Part shown: positions 1,723-23,773 of the stretch, piece by piece
How positions within the stretch are numbered: position 1 is the first letter of the stretch
Layout: each line of letters starts with the position of its first letter
Notes under the pieces: generated by a model
Seen by the model: only the letters and a program-made list of their open reading frames with translations
Database searches by the model: none
What the model was told of the DNA's origin: nothing
Origin: a virus
Direction: 5' to 3' (one strand)
Length of the DNA stretch: 28,111 bases
Virus record (IMG/VR): IMGVR_UViG_3300044591_000524
Span: 1-28,111 of that record
Position numbers and translations under genes: made by a program

Positions 1723-4700
1723 CGTTTTGAATAGTTAAACACACCATTACTCAAAGTCAATCGAGTAATTTCATCTCCAGCACCAGATGTACCCTCAACA
1801 AAAGCCTCAGTATTGTTTACAAACTTCAAGAAGTTGTCAGAGGTTAGTTTAGAAAAGTCACCATCACTGGCGTATTTTTTTATGAAGTTCTTGGTAATGT
1901 CAAGGGATGAATGACCAACTGCCTCGTTCTTAATGGCATTCCAAGACAACCAATGCAACCCACCGGGGTCGGCGTGATTTCCAAGCAATTTCTGCATTGC
2001 GGGAGACGAATCAATCGCAATTTGAGAAACTCTATCCATTGCAGAATACAGCATCAAGCTAAACAATGACTGGTTATTTTCTAAAGTTCCATAGTTTTTG
2101 TAAATTCCAATTTTATCAACTGGAACATTTTTGGATTTGCCTTCGTATTTGAAGTATTCTCTTGGTGTTTTTGCTCCAGTTAACTTCATTGCATCATCGA
2201 GATACATGTCAACAAACCTCCATCTATCTAGCACATTTCCCTTAATGCCAAATGTAAGTCCAATAAAGCTTTGCACCTTATTCTTAATGCCAGTTGCACC
2301 GTGACCAAGCGTGTTAAATGCGTATCGCATTTTTACTGGATCGCTATTTTGATAAACATCTGAAACCTCATTCCATCTTCCATTGTGTTTACTTAGCATC
2401 AAGTAGAAGCTATTAGCATTAGATGTAGCGTTCTCACCCAGCTTCCCGTATGTGCCAACGGTTTCTGTCCTAGCACTAGAAACGATGTTTTTCCATTGGT
2501 CTGGAGTTAAGTTAAATGTGCCATCAATGGATGCCTTGATTTGATCCATGACCTTTTTGTTGACAATCATTCTCATCCACAACGCTTCTTGTTGTAATGG
2601 TGGTAATTGTTTAGATAGCGTACCCCAAAGGTGGTGTAGTGCTGTAATTAACTCTGGTGGTCTACCTTTAATAAGGTCTCGCATTTCAACCACAGCATCC
2701 AATCCAGACATAGCAGATTCACGAATGCCGGGTACTGTTTTGTCTCCATGATAACCACCGCTTAACAAAGCGGCAAAGGCATCTGGGTCATTTAACATAA
2801 TTCTTAATGACGATGGTGGAATTAACACATCTCCAGCTACGCCAGATTTTTTCATTATTTCTGCATACCCGCGAGTATCTACAAACTTAAACGGGTCGTT
2901 TTCTATATCTTGAACGGCAGAATTGATTTTCTCCAAAGAATCCAAAACATTTGCCGCTGCGACCTGTTGCTTTTTGACCTCCTTAGGATCATTGGATGGT
3001 GCTTGAGAAGCACTTAATGCGTTTCCTATCAGGTCTTGATTCTGCACCGAAAAGTCTTTTGTTTTCTCAACCTTAATGTTTGGCAACGGGGTTAGATAGT
3101 TTCCTTTTAAAATTCTAAGCGGCCCATCCATTACTTTCCAAGGATCATCCTTGCCAGTTCGAGCAACAAACTTAGGAACACTTTTTGTATCGGTAGGCAA
3201 ATTGGATGATTTAATCTCAACATTCTTTCTGAGTTCACCCAAAGATCCAATTGGTGCGCTAACCCCCTTGTCGCCATCCACATCTTTCTCTGGCATAAAC
3301 CGCATCTGACCAGTCTGGTTTTCTGTAACACCATACTCTGATAGAACATTTTTAGGAACAGGTAACCCGGCCTCAACTGCATTCATAACTATCTCCCTAT
3401 GGCTTTTTTCTTTGCTAGCCAAAGATCCTAAATAATTTGAAAGCTTTTTAGCTGAAATCTCTTCTGGGTCATTTTTATATTCATTCTCAAAGGCTCTATC
3501 ATCATCAATAATTTTGCGTATATCTGCCTTGCGAATATTGCGTCCTTTAGCCCTTCGCATTTGATGAGCCGCTTCTTCCCAAAGCGTGCCAACCATGCGT
3601 TTATTAGGGTTAATGAAAATAGTAGGTTTCCCTTGGAATGTTCCAGATGCCCCATCGAAATCGTATTTATCTCCAGCAACAATTTTCTTACCTTCTTGAA
3701 CAGGAGTTCTAATTATCATTATCGGAACATCCAATACTGGTGACAGAATAGCTCTTGTTTTTTCTCCGTGAACCACATCACCAATAGTGCCAATAATCGT
3801 GCCATCTTTCGCTGATTCCGCTTGGATAAATTTACGGGAAATTTGCGGATGGAAAAATTCCTTTTTAGTCATACGCCACGGCTCAGTTGCTCCCTCTGGC
3901 ATGAAGCGGGTTTGCGCCTCTGGCTCCATCCACCCAATAGCATCCGCAGGATACGACTCCAGCATCGCCTTGGATGTGATGGGAATCAGCTTCTCATCCA
4001 TTTCGTTGATAGCAAACATCTGCTTGCCGTCTGCCCATCGTCCTTGAGCCTCCTGTGCGTTGGCTACGGGGTTGAGGTCTTCTGGGGAGATACCCTCTGG
4101 CATCGCTCGCTGGGCTTCTGGCATGCGGACTTGGCTCACTGCCTCGTAGCTGAACGGCATTGCTGCGTACTCCTCTGGGGCCATTGGGACTGCCTTGCTA
4201 ACGCGATCTGCGCGGTAGGTGCGGTAGACATTGTCCTTGCTCTTAATGCCATCCTCCAGAAGCATGGGGTTGAGGACTGCCTGCTCCTTCTTGTTGAGCA
4301 GGCCGAACATGGTGTTGATGAACTTCTTGCGCTCATCGGCCTCGACCGCTCCATATTTCTGCTTGAAAAACTCAATGCTGTCCAAGCCTTGCTTGTGGTA
4401 GTCCATCATCGCCTGCGTGTCGCGCAGGATTAAATCCACATTGCCACCATACAGCTTCTTGCCGCGCCTGTCCTGTGAGCGTTTCTGGATATTCTCATGA
4501 AGCTTGGTTACGGACATAAGTCCGAACAGCAAGTTGCCGTCCTTGGAGATGGTGACAGCGACTGGAACCGTGTCGCGTAGAGTAGCACCCTGCGGCTTGT
4601 AAACCACCTTCCCAGCCTTGTTGCGGGTAGTAGCGGGGAAGTTGATCATGACCACGCGATCACCAGCACCCTTGCGGATTAGCTTGTTCATCTCGCGGAT

Positions 4701-12967: not shown

Positions 12968-15436
12968 TTATTTCTGTGAGATGATTTGTCTATTTGTTAC
13001 TGATCCAGCAACTTTGATTGAGTTTATCTTGGCTGAACCCTGTGTCCTTGTCAAGATCATGGTTCCTGTATAGCCCCTAATGCCACCAAGCCTGCACCTA
13101 ATGCTTGCGGTTTCAGCCTCTTGGTTGATTGATTGTAGGATTTGTCCATCAAGGAATTGAGTGGTAGTTCCAATAGTCGATGAGTTGTCTGGGTCTTCAG
13201 CGGCGAACTCAATTAGGTATTCAGAATTCTGGCTCGGCAACCCCTGCATATTGATCTGCGAGTCTGTGTACCTTTTCCGCTCCAATGTCTCAAGGTCGTA
13301 ACCACGGGTGATTAGTTTGGACAGAATTGGTGCAGATGTTTTGACATCATTGGTGTTGGACACGCTGATGTTGTCATTTGAGTCATCAAATGCCTCCAAT
13401 TGGTGCAATCCACCGTTAGCGGTAACAGCATATAGGTTGTTTCTAACCCCCGCTGAACCAACAATAAGGTCTTCGATCAAAAATCTAGTGTCACCAAAGG
13501 TATCTAGCGACTCCCAGCCTCCATTTAGGAAGTTGTATACCAAAATTGAGTTGTTCCCGCGAGCATCGTTAACGCCCGGAGCGGAATCCAGCGGAACCGC
13601 AAGGTAGTACCTGTTATCAAACAAGATTCCAACTGACTTGTTGGACAAATCCTTGTTGAGCCTGTCAATGTAAGGCTGGATGTTCTTGGAAATTGGCTCC
13701 TCGGCCCCGCGAAGGTTGTAATCGTTAAGGAACTCCACACCATACACCCCATCATCCGACAGGAACATCATGGTGTTGGCCCTCATGACCACAGACTTGC
13801 GAGCTAAGCAGCCAACCTCGGAGGTTAGTTCTGTAACCCTAGTGTCTAGAAGCGTCCCCTGCGTCCCCTTAATCTGGTGGATGCTGTTCCTGTTGAGGAC
13901 AATCAACGCATCGTCGTAGAACCCATGCATCCCAACCACATAGTCAGCAGTACCACCAGAAATACGAAACTGGTTTTCGATCTGGTCAAAGGTCGTGGTG
14001 TCAAGAATGTCGGATACGGCAATCTCGTCTGTGATCTTGCGGTCGGTGTAGGTGACTGCGTTGTAAGCCCCAGACTGGTCGTAGTAGTACGGAACCCACA
14101 GGCGGCGTTGAAAGTGAACACCCCAAGGCGCACCCGGTTGATGCATAAACCCACCACCCTCGCTGAACCTACCACCAAACTCAATCTGACCAGTGGAACC
14201 ACTTGCCGTGATGTTTGCCACAGGCGCAAAGAATTTGATATTTGTCAGCGTTGCAGACGACACTTGAAAGTCTTTTCCAACAATTGCAGAGAATTCTGGA
14301 ACCGTGCTTTCGTAAACCCTAATAACATCACCAGCAAATACTGTATCATTGGATACGCCAAGGTTTAAGGAAACCTCTCCATTAGAAACCGAAACTTGGT
14401 TACCGCTAGAGTTAAATACTTGTGGTTGAGTGTAAGCCCCGCCCGGAGAGAAGGTGAATCCGTCAGTCATGGTGGCGGCAGTTACCACAAAGGTCTGGGT
14501 CTGACTTGTAGTAAAGGTATATTGGAACTGGTCTTGAGTTAGACCCGCGCCAGAAAGAACCGTAAATGTTCCATTGGCTGGAGTGCCACCAGTTAGACCA
14601 GCAATCACCACAGATGTGCCTGCCACAAGCCCGTGTTCACGGACGCGCATTGTAACGGTGGTTCCACTCTGTGACGCAGAAAGAATGGGCCTACCATTAG
14701 GATACCACTCCAACGCCTGCTGCCCCTCTCGGAATAGCATCACCTTGTCAAACACTTGAATCATGTCGGTGTCCGCGCCCAAGGCAGTTCCAGCTGGATA
14801 TGCGATATTCTCTGGAACATAGGCGGAATTAGACTCAACAGCAGCCAAGTCAATCTTCTTAGCAACCGTGTCCAACGCCACAATCACATATTCTTTATTA
14901 TTGGTGTTGGGGTCGCTGAACAGACAGGAGGCTCGGACATTGGCGTTAGCTGCATCGTTAATCGGCATCTGGGACAATGTGCCAGTCCCGGAAACCGCAG
15001 TCACCCCAGTTACGGGGAAGCTCAATTGGTTCGCTGAAACATAAGTCAGCACCTTGGCCCCGTTGTTGTTAGTGCCAGTAAAGGTCAGTCCAGCTACTAC
15101 AGCATACCCGCTAGAACCTGCCTCAAACCCATGATTGGCGGACATGGTAATCGTTACCACATTTGAGGCGTATGTCGCTGACGAGATGGTCTTGGCAACA
15201 TCAATCAAATAGAATGGCAACTGCAACGGATCACCACCAACGGTCAATGCCCCAGTTCTAGAAACCACCACCTTGCGGGGCTTCCAGTAACCCTCCATGC
15301 GCCCGTTCAAGGACTCTCTAACCTCTCCGGGCTTCAACTGGTTTAGCTGCAACCTCTGGTTCACGCCAACAAACCCACGATCACCATCCTCGGCAATCGA
15401 GTCATCCATCCCACCAGTGGATCGGAACTGCGACAT
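12968..15436 (-). CDS. Large beta-rich tail protein, nozzle / tubular protein B-like
   Basis: An 822-aa protein. The N-terminal 60 residues resemble the start of podovirus nozzle proteins (GFVGVNQRLQLNQLKPGEVR and then ESLNGRMEGYWKPRKVV). The next 250 residues contain three Ig-like or carbohydrate-module-like repeats, each with a GL.G......NGT or G..FTGTNNNGA pattern. From about 440 onward come blades of a beta-propeller: HFQRRLWVPYYYDQSGAYNA, FRISGGTADYVVGMHGFYDD, ALIVLNRNSIHQIKG, DNRYYLAVPLDSAPGVN and ILVYNFLNGGWESLD. This arrangement suits the hexameric distal tube that carries the fibers. Its ATG shares bases with the stop of the small upstream gene (TAATG). The exact T7 gp12 equivalence is inferred from fold-like motifs and position. 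Confidence 0.7.
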   Translation of the reverse strand: MSQFRSTGGMDDSIAEDGDRGFVGVNQRLQLNQLKPGEVRESLNGRMEGYWKPRKVVVSRTGALTVGGDPLQLPFYLIDVAKTISSATYASNVVTITMSANHGFEAGSSGYAVVAGLTFTGTNNNGAKVLTYVSANQLSFPVTGVTAVSGTGTLSQMPINDAANANVRASCLFSDPNTNNKEYVIVALDTVAKKIDLAAVESNSAYVPENIAYPAGTALGADTDMIQVFDKVMLFREGQQALEWYPNGRPILSASQSGTTVTMRVREHGLVAGTSVVIAGLTGGTPANGTFTVLSGAGLTQDQFQYTFTTSQTQTFVVTAATMTDGFTFSPGGAYTQPQVFNSSGNQVSVSNGEVSLNLGVSNDTVFAGDVIRVYESTVPEFSAIVGKDFQVSSATLTNIKFFAPVANITASGSTGQIEFGGRFSEGGGFMHQPGAPWGVHFQRRLWVPYYYDQSGAYNAVTYTDRKITDEIAVSDILDTTTFDQIENQFRISGGTADYVVGMHGFYDDALIVLNRNSIHQIKGTQGTLLDTRVTELTSEVGCLARKSVVMRANTMMFLSDDGVYGVEFLNDYNLRGAEEPISKNIQPYIDRLNKDLSNKSVGILFDNRYYLAVPLDSAPGVNDARGNNSILVYNFLNGGWESLDTFGDTRFLIEDLIVGSAGVRNNLYAVTANGGLHQLEAFDDSNDNISVSNTNDVKTSAPILSKLITRGYDLETLERKRYTDSQINMQGLPSQNSEYLIEFAAEDPDNSSTIGTTTQFLDGQILQSINQEAETASIRCRLGGIRGYTGTMILTRTQGSAKINSIKVAGSVTNRQIISQK

Positions 15437-15910: not shown

Positions 15911-15969
15911 CCAGCCAACAACACCTCCCACGCCTCTCTACGATGCGCACCAAGGGGGGTTGCTTTTTA

Positions 15970-16044
15970 TCCTGTGTAGCTCAGGGGCAGAGCAAGCGAC
16001 TGTTAATCGCTAGGTCGTTGGTTCGATCCCAACCGCAGGAGCCA
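15970..16044 (+). tRNA. tRNA-Asn(GTT) with encoded CCA
   Basis: A full cloverleaf can be drawn by eye. The acceptor stem is TCCTGTG (15970-15976) with CGCAGGA (16034-16040), including one G-T pair. The D arm is GCTC/GAGC, and the anticodon stem AGCGA/TCGCT surrounds the loop CTGTTAA with anticodon GTT at 16002-16004. A 5-base variable loop and a T arm GTTGG/CCAAC with loop TTCGATC follow. G16041 is the discriminator and CCA is encoded at 16042-16044. It lies on the strand opposite to every protein gene. A phage tRNA that reads AAC/AAU is the plain interpretation; tRNA genes are also common phage attachment sites, but no integrase or repeated tRNA end was seen. Confidence 0.95.
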
Positions 16045-22467: not shown

Positions 22468-22784
22468 GATAGGTCTAATACTTTGAGTTCGTAGCGGTTG
22501 GTCTTCTCGTTCTTCTTCCAGCCGTGGATCAGCACCTTCCACCCTGCCCGGCGGAGGCAGTCTAGGTAAGGTGACTCCGACATCTTCTTTGCCCTCGCTG
22601 ACACATTGTTCCAGCTAGTGGTCTGGACGGCAATGGTCTCACTCCCAGCGCATGCCAGCACATCCACGAAGCCGAAGAGATCCTTGCGGCGGCGGGAGAA
22701 CTGACACCAATGCTCGACCACCTGCACGCAGTCTGTGGCCTTGCGTAGCTCCTTGAGGGTTAGCTGGGTGGGTGAGGTCTTCAT
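22464..22784 (-). CDS. Small PD-(D/E)XK-like nuclease (VRR-NUC / resolvase-like)
   Basis: A 106-aa protein. The core CQFSRRRKDLFGFVDVLACA, then ETIAVQTTS, then NVSARAKKM carries the features of compact restriction-fold nucleases: DLFGFVDVL supplies the metal-binding Asp pair, and VQTTS replaces the usual E-x-K strand with Q-x-T. LRRAGWKVLIHGWKK gives the terminal helix and strand. Similar phage proteins are annotated as VRR-NUC or Holliday-junction-resolvase-like. It lies between the DnaA-like gene and the accessory run, and may process recombination intermediates. Since the catalytic Lys is not obvious, activity is uncertain. Confidence 0.6.
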   Translation of the reverse strand: MKTSPTQLTLKELRKATDCVQVVEHWCQFSRRRKDLFGFVDVLACAGSETIAVQTTSWNNVSARAKKMSESPYLDCLRRAGWKVLIHGWKKNEKTNRYELKVLDLS

Positions 22785-23131
22785 GCCTTTAGGCGTTGCA
22801 GCACAAACTTAGCCTTAGTGCGGAATGACTCATTCTCCCTAGTGAGCATGTCTGCCCGGTGCTTAGCGGAGATGATAGTAGTGTGATCCTTGCGTTGAAA
22901 TATACGGGCAGTTTCTGCGAGCGTGTGGTGTTCGCTGACGAGTGCCATTGCAAGCGTCCTAGCCTGCGAGGGAGCAACCTGCTTATCATAGGCGAAGATT
23001 TGGCTTGGGTGTACGCCAAAAATATCCGCAACAATGTTGATGGTACGATACGCTTTATTACTCGACATCCTGCGGTCAAGTTCGGCGCATAGTTCGTCGG
23101 TGGTGAGGTCGTTGACATGTGTGACTTTCAT
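22781..23131 (-). CDS. Stand-alone DnaA domain IV-like DNA-binding protein
   Basis: A 116-aa protein. Residues 30-97 follow the C-terminal (Bac_DnaA_C) domain of the initiator DnaA: NIVADIFGVHPSQIF, SQARTLAMALVSEHHTLAET and ARIFQRKDHTTIISAKHR, the RKDHTTI part being the signature (RDHTTV) that contacts the DnaA box. There is no AAA+ domain, so it can bind DNA but not open an origin alone. It may mark the phage origin, compete with host DnaA, or regulate genes. Its leader carries a putative pseudoknot (23132-23172) that is repeated before the next upstream gene. The start ATG 23131 follows TTTTAA with no Shine-Dalgarno. Confidence 0.85.
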   Translation of the reverse strand: MKVTHVNDLTTDELCAELDRRMSSNKAYRTINIVADIFGVHPSQIFAYDKQVAPSQARTLAMALVSEHHTLAETARIFQRKDHTTIISAKHRADMLTRENESFRTKAKFVLQRLKA

Positions 23132-23172
23132 TTAAAAGTGTTTGCCCTGCGTGCAACCCTCGGGCCAAGGGA
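23132..23172 (-). promoter_or_regulatory. Conserved leader element A, putative H-type pseudoknot
   Basis: On the gene strand: CCCT (23170-23167), GGCCC loop, then AGGG (stem 1), a 9-base connector and GGGC 12 bases before ATG 23131. The loop GCCC can pair with GGGC, making an H-type pseudoknot. The same words in the same order occur before ATG 23475. It would block or tune ribosome access. Confidence 0.5.
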
Positions 23173-23202
23173 CAGAACCCACCTGCACACTGGTGGTGAT
23201 TG

Positions 23203-23475
23203 TTATGCGTGATTAGCTACAGCGTCAATGGCGGAGCAGCGTACGATGATGCCGTTGCCTCTAGCTGGGGCAAACTTGTCAACCCGATGCTCTAGGTTGC
23301 GGAGGTATGCTACTTCTTTTGCGTTGGCTGGAATGACCCGGTAGAAATCACCCTTGATTTGCGTCGAATTATAGACAGGTGTTCCGTACCTCAAATCCTT
23401 CTCCTCTCGGATGATATCGGGGTTTTTGACCTTGGTTTTTGCGCCAAAATTTAGCGTGCGTTTGATAAGTCTCAT
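23203..23475 (-). CDS. Conserved-leader protein of unknown function (90 aa)
   Basis: A 90-aa basic protein (MRLIKRTLNFGAKTKVKNPD..., then FYRVIPANAKEVAYLRNLEH and PARGNGIIVRCSAIDAVAN). No family recognised. The mix of beta strands and basic residues could suit nucleic-acid binding. It sits between the SSB-like gene and the DnaA-like gene, and shares with the latter a 71-73 base leader containing the putative pseudoknot. ATG 23475 was chosen over the upstream in-frame ATG 23535, because the latter would translate the conserved leader. Confidence 0.65.
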   Translation of the reverse strand: MRLIKRTLNFGAKTKVKNPDIIREEKDLRYGTPVYNSTQIKGDFYRVIPANAKEVAYLRNLEHRVDKFAPARGNGIIVRCSAIDAVANHA

Positions 23476-23516
23476 GAAAGTGATTTGCCCTGTGATGAAC
23501 CCTCGGGCCAAGGGAT
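23476..23516 (-). promoter_or_regulatory. Conserved leader element B, putative H-type pseudoknot
   Basis: A copy of element A: the 15-base CCCTTGGCCCGAGGG (gene strand) is identical, the 9-base connector is different in sequence but equal in length, and GGGCAAA follows 11 bases before ATG 23475. Constancy of the four arms with change in the connector is what a pseudoknot predicts. Confidence 0.5.
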
Positions 23517-23548
23517 GAAGTACGCATGTCACCACTCATGCATGGGAA

Positions 23549-23773
23549 TCAGAAGGGGATCTCGTCGGTCTCTTCTGTTGCCGCAGGTTTAGCCGCAGCC
23601 TTGTCGTCAACCTTTAGCGAGATGAACTTGCCGCTCTTGCCCTCGCGGAGCCAACCAGCAAGTTGATATTCCTTGCCTTCGATGTCGATTTTGCCCTTGT
23701 ATGCAGGACGCTTGGGGTTGTCACCCACATCGTTCTTAAACAGAATGCCCGTATTTGTGTTGTCGTAGCTCAT
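23549..23773 (-). CDS. Small SSB-like protein with acidic DEIPF tail
   Basis: A 74-aa protein: NTGILFKNDVGDNPKRPAYK and then GKIDIEGKEYQLAGWLREGK and SGKFISLKVDD give a short beta-strand barrel pattern. It ends in TDEIPF. The last five residues (DEIPF) closely resemble the DDIPF tip by which bacterial single-strand binding proteins recruit partners. The barrel is too short for a complete OB fold of the usual kind, so it may be a minimal SSB or an SSB mimic. The neighbours, a RecE-like exonuclease and an Erf annealing protein, fit ssDNA handling. Confidence 0.7.
   Translation of the reverse strand: MSYDNTNTGILFKNDVGDNPKRPAYKGKIDIEGKEYQLAGWLREGKSGKFISLKVDDKAAAKPAATEETDEIPF

Follow-up and report, generated by a model that had tools for sequence, protein, structure and literature searches.

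In the IncI/IncB repZ/repA system, a short G+C-rich pseudoknot lies just upstream of the start codon and beside the stop codon of an upstream frame. The preQ1-I-type riboswitch is likewise a small pseudoknot whose 3' arm is close to the translation start, and in both the fluoride (crcB) riboswitch and the pistol ribozyme the loop of a 5' hairpin pairs with a strand further downstream. Expression of repA in the I-complex plasmids requires translation of a leader peptide (PMC10286972), and the repZ pseudoknot is attributed to Asano and Mizobuchi (1998), as cited in PMC10286972. Among phages, the pseudoknot to which T4 gp32 binds lies about 67 nt upstream of the gene for gp32 itself (PMC3014915), and a UUAAA-rich stretch separates the single pseudoknot from the ssb gene in T4, T2 and RB69 (PMC3014915, PMC535899). 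The site of the gene 32 leader pseudoknot is adjoined by segG, a homing endonuclease gene (PMC535899).

The window analyzed here, the whole 28,111-nt stretch of viral DNA, carries two similar leaders, copy A and copy B, for which a preliminary description had proposed one shared pseudoknot and control resembling that of T4 gene 32. The leaders measure 71 and 73 bases, as that description gave them (23202-23132 and 23548-23476), and its naming of the neighboring genes as SSB-like and DnaA-like is borne out by the family matches listed below. Profile searches gave no significant family for the 90-aa protein, in agreement with its having been called unknown. Among INPHARED phages, no match was found to the DnaA-like protein, to the 90-aa protein or to the region. 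The genes and the parts of each leader map as follows.

23549..23773, minus strand: SSB-like gene (74 aa) with an EIPF tail, lying upstream of copy A (phage SSB family phrog_18154, E 6e-15)
23476..23548, minus strand: copy A, intercistronic leader of 73 nt, from the SSB-like stop codon to the ATG of the 90-aa gene
23537..23541, minus strand: copy A, P1 5' arm GCAUG (aligned and covarying)
23529..23535, minus strand: copy A, L1 GUGGUGA, the PK1 5' arm; the base just before it, at 23536, is the conserved loop A
23524..23528, minus strand: copy A, P1 3' arm CAUGC
23510..23514, minus strand: copy A, P2 5' arm CCCUU
23505..23508, minus strand: copy A, loop GCCC, the predicted PK2 5' arm (near-invariant)
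23500..23504, minus strand: copy A, P2 3' arm GAGGG
23492..23498, minus strand: copy A, PK1 3' arm UCAUCAC, within what had been called the connector
23487..23490, minus strand: copy A, predicted PK2 3' arm GGGC, 11 nt before ATG 23475
23203..23475, minus strand: 90-aa gene led by copy A (no significant family match)
23132..23202, minus strand: copy B, intercistronic leader of 71 nt, from the stop codon of the 90-aa gene to the ATG of the DnaA-like gene
23192..23196, minus strand: copy B, P1 5' arm CCACC
23184..23190, minus strand: copy B, L1 GUGUGCA, the PK1 5' arm; the base just before it, at 23191, is the conserved loop A
23179..23183, minus strand: copy B, P1 3' arm GGUGG
23167..23171, minus strand: copy B, P2 5' arm CCCUU
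23162..23165, minus strand: copy B, loop GCCC, the predicted PK2 5' arm
23157..23161, minus strand: copy B, P2 3' arm GAGGG
23149..23155, minus strand: copy B, PK1 3' arm UGCACGC
23144..23147, minus strand: copy B, predicted PK2 3' arm GGGC, 12 nt before ATG 23131
22781..23131, minus strand: DnaA domain-IV-like gene led by copy B (Bac_DnaA_C, PF08299, E 1.6e-10)

Copy A precedes ATG 23475 of the 90-aa gene and copy B precedes ATG 23131 of the DnaA-like gene. Both contain the 15-base block CCCTTGGCCCGAGGG on the minus strand, at 23514-23500 in copy A and 23171-23157 in copy B, directly followed by a 9-base connector (TTCATCACA in copy A, TTGCACGCA in copy B) and then by GGGCAAA and CACTTT; each of these parts lies where it had been reported. 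With up to three mismatches allowed, just two sites in the window match the block, each on both strands because the block is a near-palindrome. Dinucleotide shuffles gave a mean of 0.64 block matches, with none of 100 reaching four, and the whole 28.1-kb virus record holds no third copy. The connector, described earlier as changing in sequence but not in length, is not free: it forms a 7-bp pairing with loop bases of P1, a hairpin further upstream that had been overlooked. The pseudoknot proposed earlier would be one of two interlocked pseudoknots, the other having gone unseen.

The resulting element spans ~55 nt and consists of two interlocked H-type pseudoknots. Its 5' part comprises hairpin P1, with an 8-nt loop made of an A and seven bases (L1), and a linker of about 5-13 nt; its 3' part comprises P2 with GCCC in its loop, 1-2 bases, seven bases complementary to L1, usually an A, and GGGC. 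PK1 joins the P1 loop to the strand after P2 by 7 bp, and PK2 would join the P2 loop GCCC to the downstream GGGC. We evaluated this architecture with model R1, which was built from 20 sequences and aligned 51 matches, of which 49 distinct rows were counted; P1 and PK2 were not entered as pairs in the alignment model. Across the 49 distinct sequences, 95.5% of cells are paired in the named structure with its pseudoknots. Double-changed cells number 244, compared with a mean of 68 after shuffling and at most 47 in slid controls, and the covariation score is 0.616 compared with 0.200 and at most 0.116, respectively, although neither type of control fully removes sequence relatedness. Double changes occur in all five pairs of P1, five of the seven of PK1 and four of the five of P2. 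PK1 is represented by 23 distinct arm pairs, and an arm is fully paired with its own partner in 91% of cases versus 11% with others. The 64 G-U cells, together with the constant sense orientation, favor RNA rather than DNA as the conserved form. The P1/PK1/P2 structure is well supported by comparative sequence analysis, and the earlier proposal that the two genes share a conserved pseudoknotted leader is upheld. Energy-based nested folding does not reveal the structure, with unremarkable z-scores of 0.57 and -0.35.

PK2 reads GCCC/GGGC in all rows but one, which carries GGGU and hence a G-U pair; some rows carry GCUCC, where pairing is still possible through a bulged U or a G-U pair. Because GCCC/GGGC is nearly invariant, covariation cannot test PK2, and the search models themselves reward these bases, which biases what gets found. 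PK2 is accordingly a predicted pairing, based on conservation and geometry. All four arms had been described as constant: for the P2 arms (CCCT/AGGG) relatives supply compensatory changes, and for GCCC/GGGC they supply near constancy with the single G-U variant. Conserved unpaired bases are few, the nearly constant ones being the first loop A, the A preceding GGGC and the AA following it.

Rfam 15 gave no match overlapping either copy on the same strand, also when E values up to 10 were admitted, and related loci had no Rfam match at gathering score. A search covering mainly literature outside subscription found no description of the element, and an earlier description may exist. Elsewhere in the window, an abiF RNA (RF03085) lies at 15924-15960 on the plus strand (46.8 bits, with the gathering threshold at 37). 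A tRNA-Asn follows directly at 15970-16044, and no gene for an AbiF-like protein was recognized next to the abiF RNA.

An exact IMG/VR scan for the block plus GGGC gave 14 contigs, 12 of which are clear members of one phage group. Leaders before relatives of the DnaA-like gene differ in sequence and keep the architecture. Two motif-blind surveys, anchored on neighboring protein genes for a PD-(D/E)XK exonuclease and a RuvC-like nuclease, yielded more divergent members, some recognized with a covariance model and others with a descriptor or by eye. By our count, the element occurs in about 60 IMG/VR contigs besides the window, all of them uncultured phage records, for which a freshwater origin is no more than our conjecture. 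A genome scan with a 16-base core returned 120 rows, of which the lowest-score matches alone remain after the descriptor, and we judge these to be chance. Model R2, applied with stricter filters to 395 + 398 genomes of two phyla, gave just three matches of 25-26 bits, which are unconvincing. One 65.6-kb, apparently unrelated phage contig (L016), whose ORFs by eye resemble terminase and portal, carries two tandem copies of CCCTTGGCCCGAGGG...GGGC at 14339-14482, with hairpins CCGCG/CGCGG and CCGTG/CACGG and a 6-bp PK1 (GUACAG with CUGUAC and CUGUGC). These copies score weakly, follow an SPFH-like gene and lie far from the next AUG, and their homology to the element is uncertain.

Many related phages lack the element, which is therefore dispensable. 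In some of these relatives, ssb runs almost directly into the next gene, and in three (L271, L272 and L320; about 4140-4670) an HNH homing-endonuclease gene takes exactly the element's place, separating ssb from the gene that follows; it has a promoter-like TTGACA at its start and ends at a shared CACTTTCC. An ERF gene is present in 14 of 18 element-bearing contigs versus 2 of 11 without the element, a difference confounded by relatedness and incomplete contigs; gene-content comparison as a route to a trans factor was set aside on these grounds.

The element fills the intercistronic gap and is always found on the sense strand before a gene. Among the 51 members, P1 mostly starts 6-7 nt past the upstream stop codon (4-12 nt in most), with distances of 19-21 nt in two members and 47 nt in one; in four members (L322, L355, L371 and L373) the stop codon lies within P1. 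At the other end, the cis-acting position just before start codons seen in the window recurs widely, GGGC ending 9-12 nt before the AUG in 39 of the 51 and 19-37 nt before it in 12, a compact spacing that is partly due to the short intergenic gaps of phages. In copy A of L044, a small hairpin, ATCACAAATTGTGAT, inserted between GGGC and AUG accounts for the longer spacing. A coding leader was rejected, given varying lengths and frames and a downstream frame that is closed in 37 of 50. Absence of a Shine-Dalgarno sequence was likewise rejected as a mark of the two genes, as other ORFs in these phages also lack one: the frequency is 14% in their ORFs, many of which may be spurious, versus 16% in random stretches. 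In the window, a few small early genes, at about 20503, 20711 and 20959, have strong AAAGGAGG sites; most genes have none.

The genes that follow the element include the 90-aa gene, the DnaA-like gene, a 66-70-aa family, a PAPS-reductase-like gene and a 60-aa gene, with no clear common theme. Most copies before 90-aa or 66-70-aa genes sit directly after an SSB-like gene, and the SSB-like proteins upstream (phrog_18154, phrog_4932/DUF3127, phrog_24909 and phrog_18187) have no detectable relationship between groups. The RNA core is kept while the SSB-like genes upstream and the genes downstream are swapped for unrelated ones. The upstream neighbor of copy B and of the L241 copy is not ssb.

The best reading of these data is a new cis-acting intercistronic element. 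We consider it probable that the leaders are copies of a cis-acting structured RNA outside Rfam, which most likely controls translation of the downstream cistron. In the mechanism we envisage, the element would occupy the gap between two cistrons of a phage replication/recombination cluster, and the folded RNA, ending mostly 9-12 nt before the AUG and hence within the expected 30S footprint, would hinder initiation. It is this placement within the expected initiation footprint that leads us to favor control at translation initiation, and a conserved, covarying structured domain 9-12 nt from the AUG in most members is a riboswitch-like trait. Folding may be tuned by a metabolite, or by a protein of phage or host, that binds the near-invariant PK2/A core, and also by ribosomes terminating at the stop codon next to or within P1. 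The near-invariant PK2 core suggests a specific partner, and the adjoining stop codon suggests an influence of upstream ribosomes; repression by folding, a trans factor and coupling to upstream translation are, like function and ligand generally, inferred from sequence. A more tentative proposal, which we think rather unlikely, is that two H-type pseudoknots chained together form a new class of aptamer. Such an aptamer would either detect a metabolite or contact the initiating ribosome directly, and would thereby set initiation of phage genes in hosts whose use of Shine-Dalgarno sequences seems limited.

Several other explanations draw on the same observations. Abutment of P1 on the upstream stop, which even falls inside P1 in four members, would suit a ligand-free translational coupling in which upstream ribosomes open P1 and PK1, or allow PK2, and thereby switch initiation at the next AUG; the dependence of repA on leader-peptide translation offers a parallel (PMC10286972). 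This account is possible at best, since a plain hairpin would do, the near-invariant GCCC/GGGC and flanking A's are left unexplained, and the stop lies 19 nt or more before P1 in three members. Compact interlocked pseudoknots also occur in self-cleaving and exonuclease-resistant RNAs, and the intercistronic position would fit a processing or stability element, whether a cleavage site or a barrier to 5'-3' exonuclease, by which the 5' end of the downstream mRNA would be fixed. Such a role would not require the tight AUG spacing, and with no Rfam ribozyme match and few conserved unpaired bases for an active site we regard it as improbable.

An autogenous SSB operator modeled on T4 gene 32, the analogy drawn in the preliminary description, would account for a pseudoknot in an RNA leader and for the many copies directly after an SSB-like gene. 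It is nonetheless very unlikely: the element lies downstream of ssb and leads other genes, its core survives exchange of both the SSB family and the downstream gene, and neither copy B nor the L241 copy comes after ssb. The near-palindromic P2 block and the replacement of the element by an HNH homing gene in several relatives could instead point to DNA, namely an operator, promoter or homing target common to the sites. Against this highly unlikely reading, the PK1 arms, ~30 nt apart, covary in register with P1 and P2 and include many G-U pairs, and without exception the element precedes a gene in sense orientation. A pseudoknot 6-7 nt after a stop codon has the spacing of recoding pseudoknots, which would stimulate readthrough or frameshifting of the upstream gene, but gap lengths modulo 3 are distributed 19/18/13 with no conserved frame relation across the stop, all three stop codons are used, readthrough extensions range from 1 to 139 aa, and the stop lies inside P1 in four members. 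Recoding and fusion were rejected on the frame and extension data, and we give recoding almost no chance.

If translational control is the correct reading, the element gives a handle on the timing of replication genes in phages where Shine-Dalgarno sites are scarce. It represents a richer leader pseudoknot, with strong covariation, absent from Rfam and present in some 60 contigs, where it precedes no fewer than five kinds of gene, and it is a small RNA whose pairs can be individually broken and restored.

Like the fluoride (crcB) riboswitch and the pistol ribozyme, the element has a 5' hairpin loop that pairs with a downstream strand; unlike them, it adds the P2-loop/GGGC pseudoknot and an AUG-proximal position, and it has no Rfam match to either. 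With preQ1-I-type riboswitches it shares a small pseudoknotted form and a 3' arm near the translation start, whereas its sequence differs, with no Rfam match and very few conserved unpaired bases. The IncI/IncB repZ/repA switch also has a short G+C-rich pseudoknot near the start and a stop codon adjoining the structure, but that pseudoknot is long-range and under antisense RNA control, whereas the element is a local, self-contained double pseudoknot. To our knowledge, it has no antisense RNA. As in gene 32 of T4, T2 and RB69, where an H-type pseudoknot in a phage mRNA leader controls translation, the structure stands in an mRNA leader, and the HNH gene at its site in some relatives recalls segG. 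In contrast to gene 32, two interlocked pseudoknots lie downstream of ssb and lead other genes, and in place of a UUAAA-rich stretch of >40 nt before the AUG there are 9-12 nt in 39 of 51 members. Among phage systems, T4 gene 32 control comes closest in spirit but differs in gene, distance and architecture, and the I-complex repA/repZ switch is the nearest system for a pseudoknot that adjoins a stop codon.
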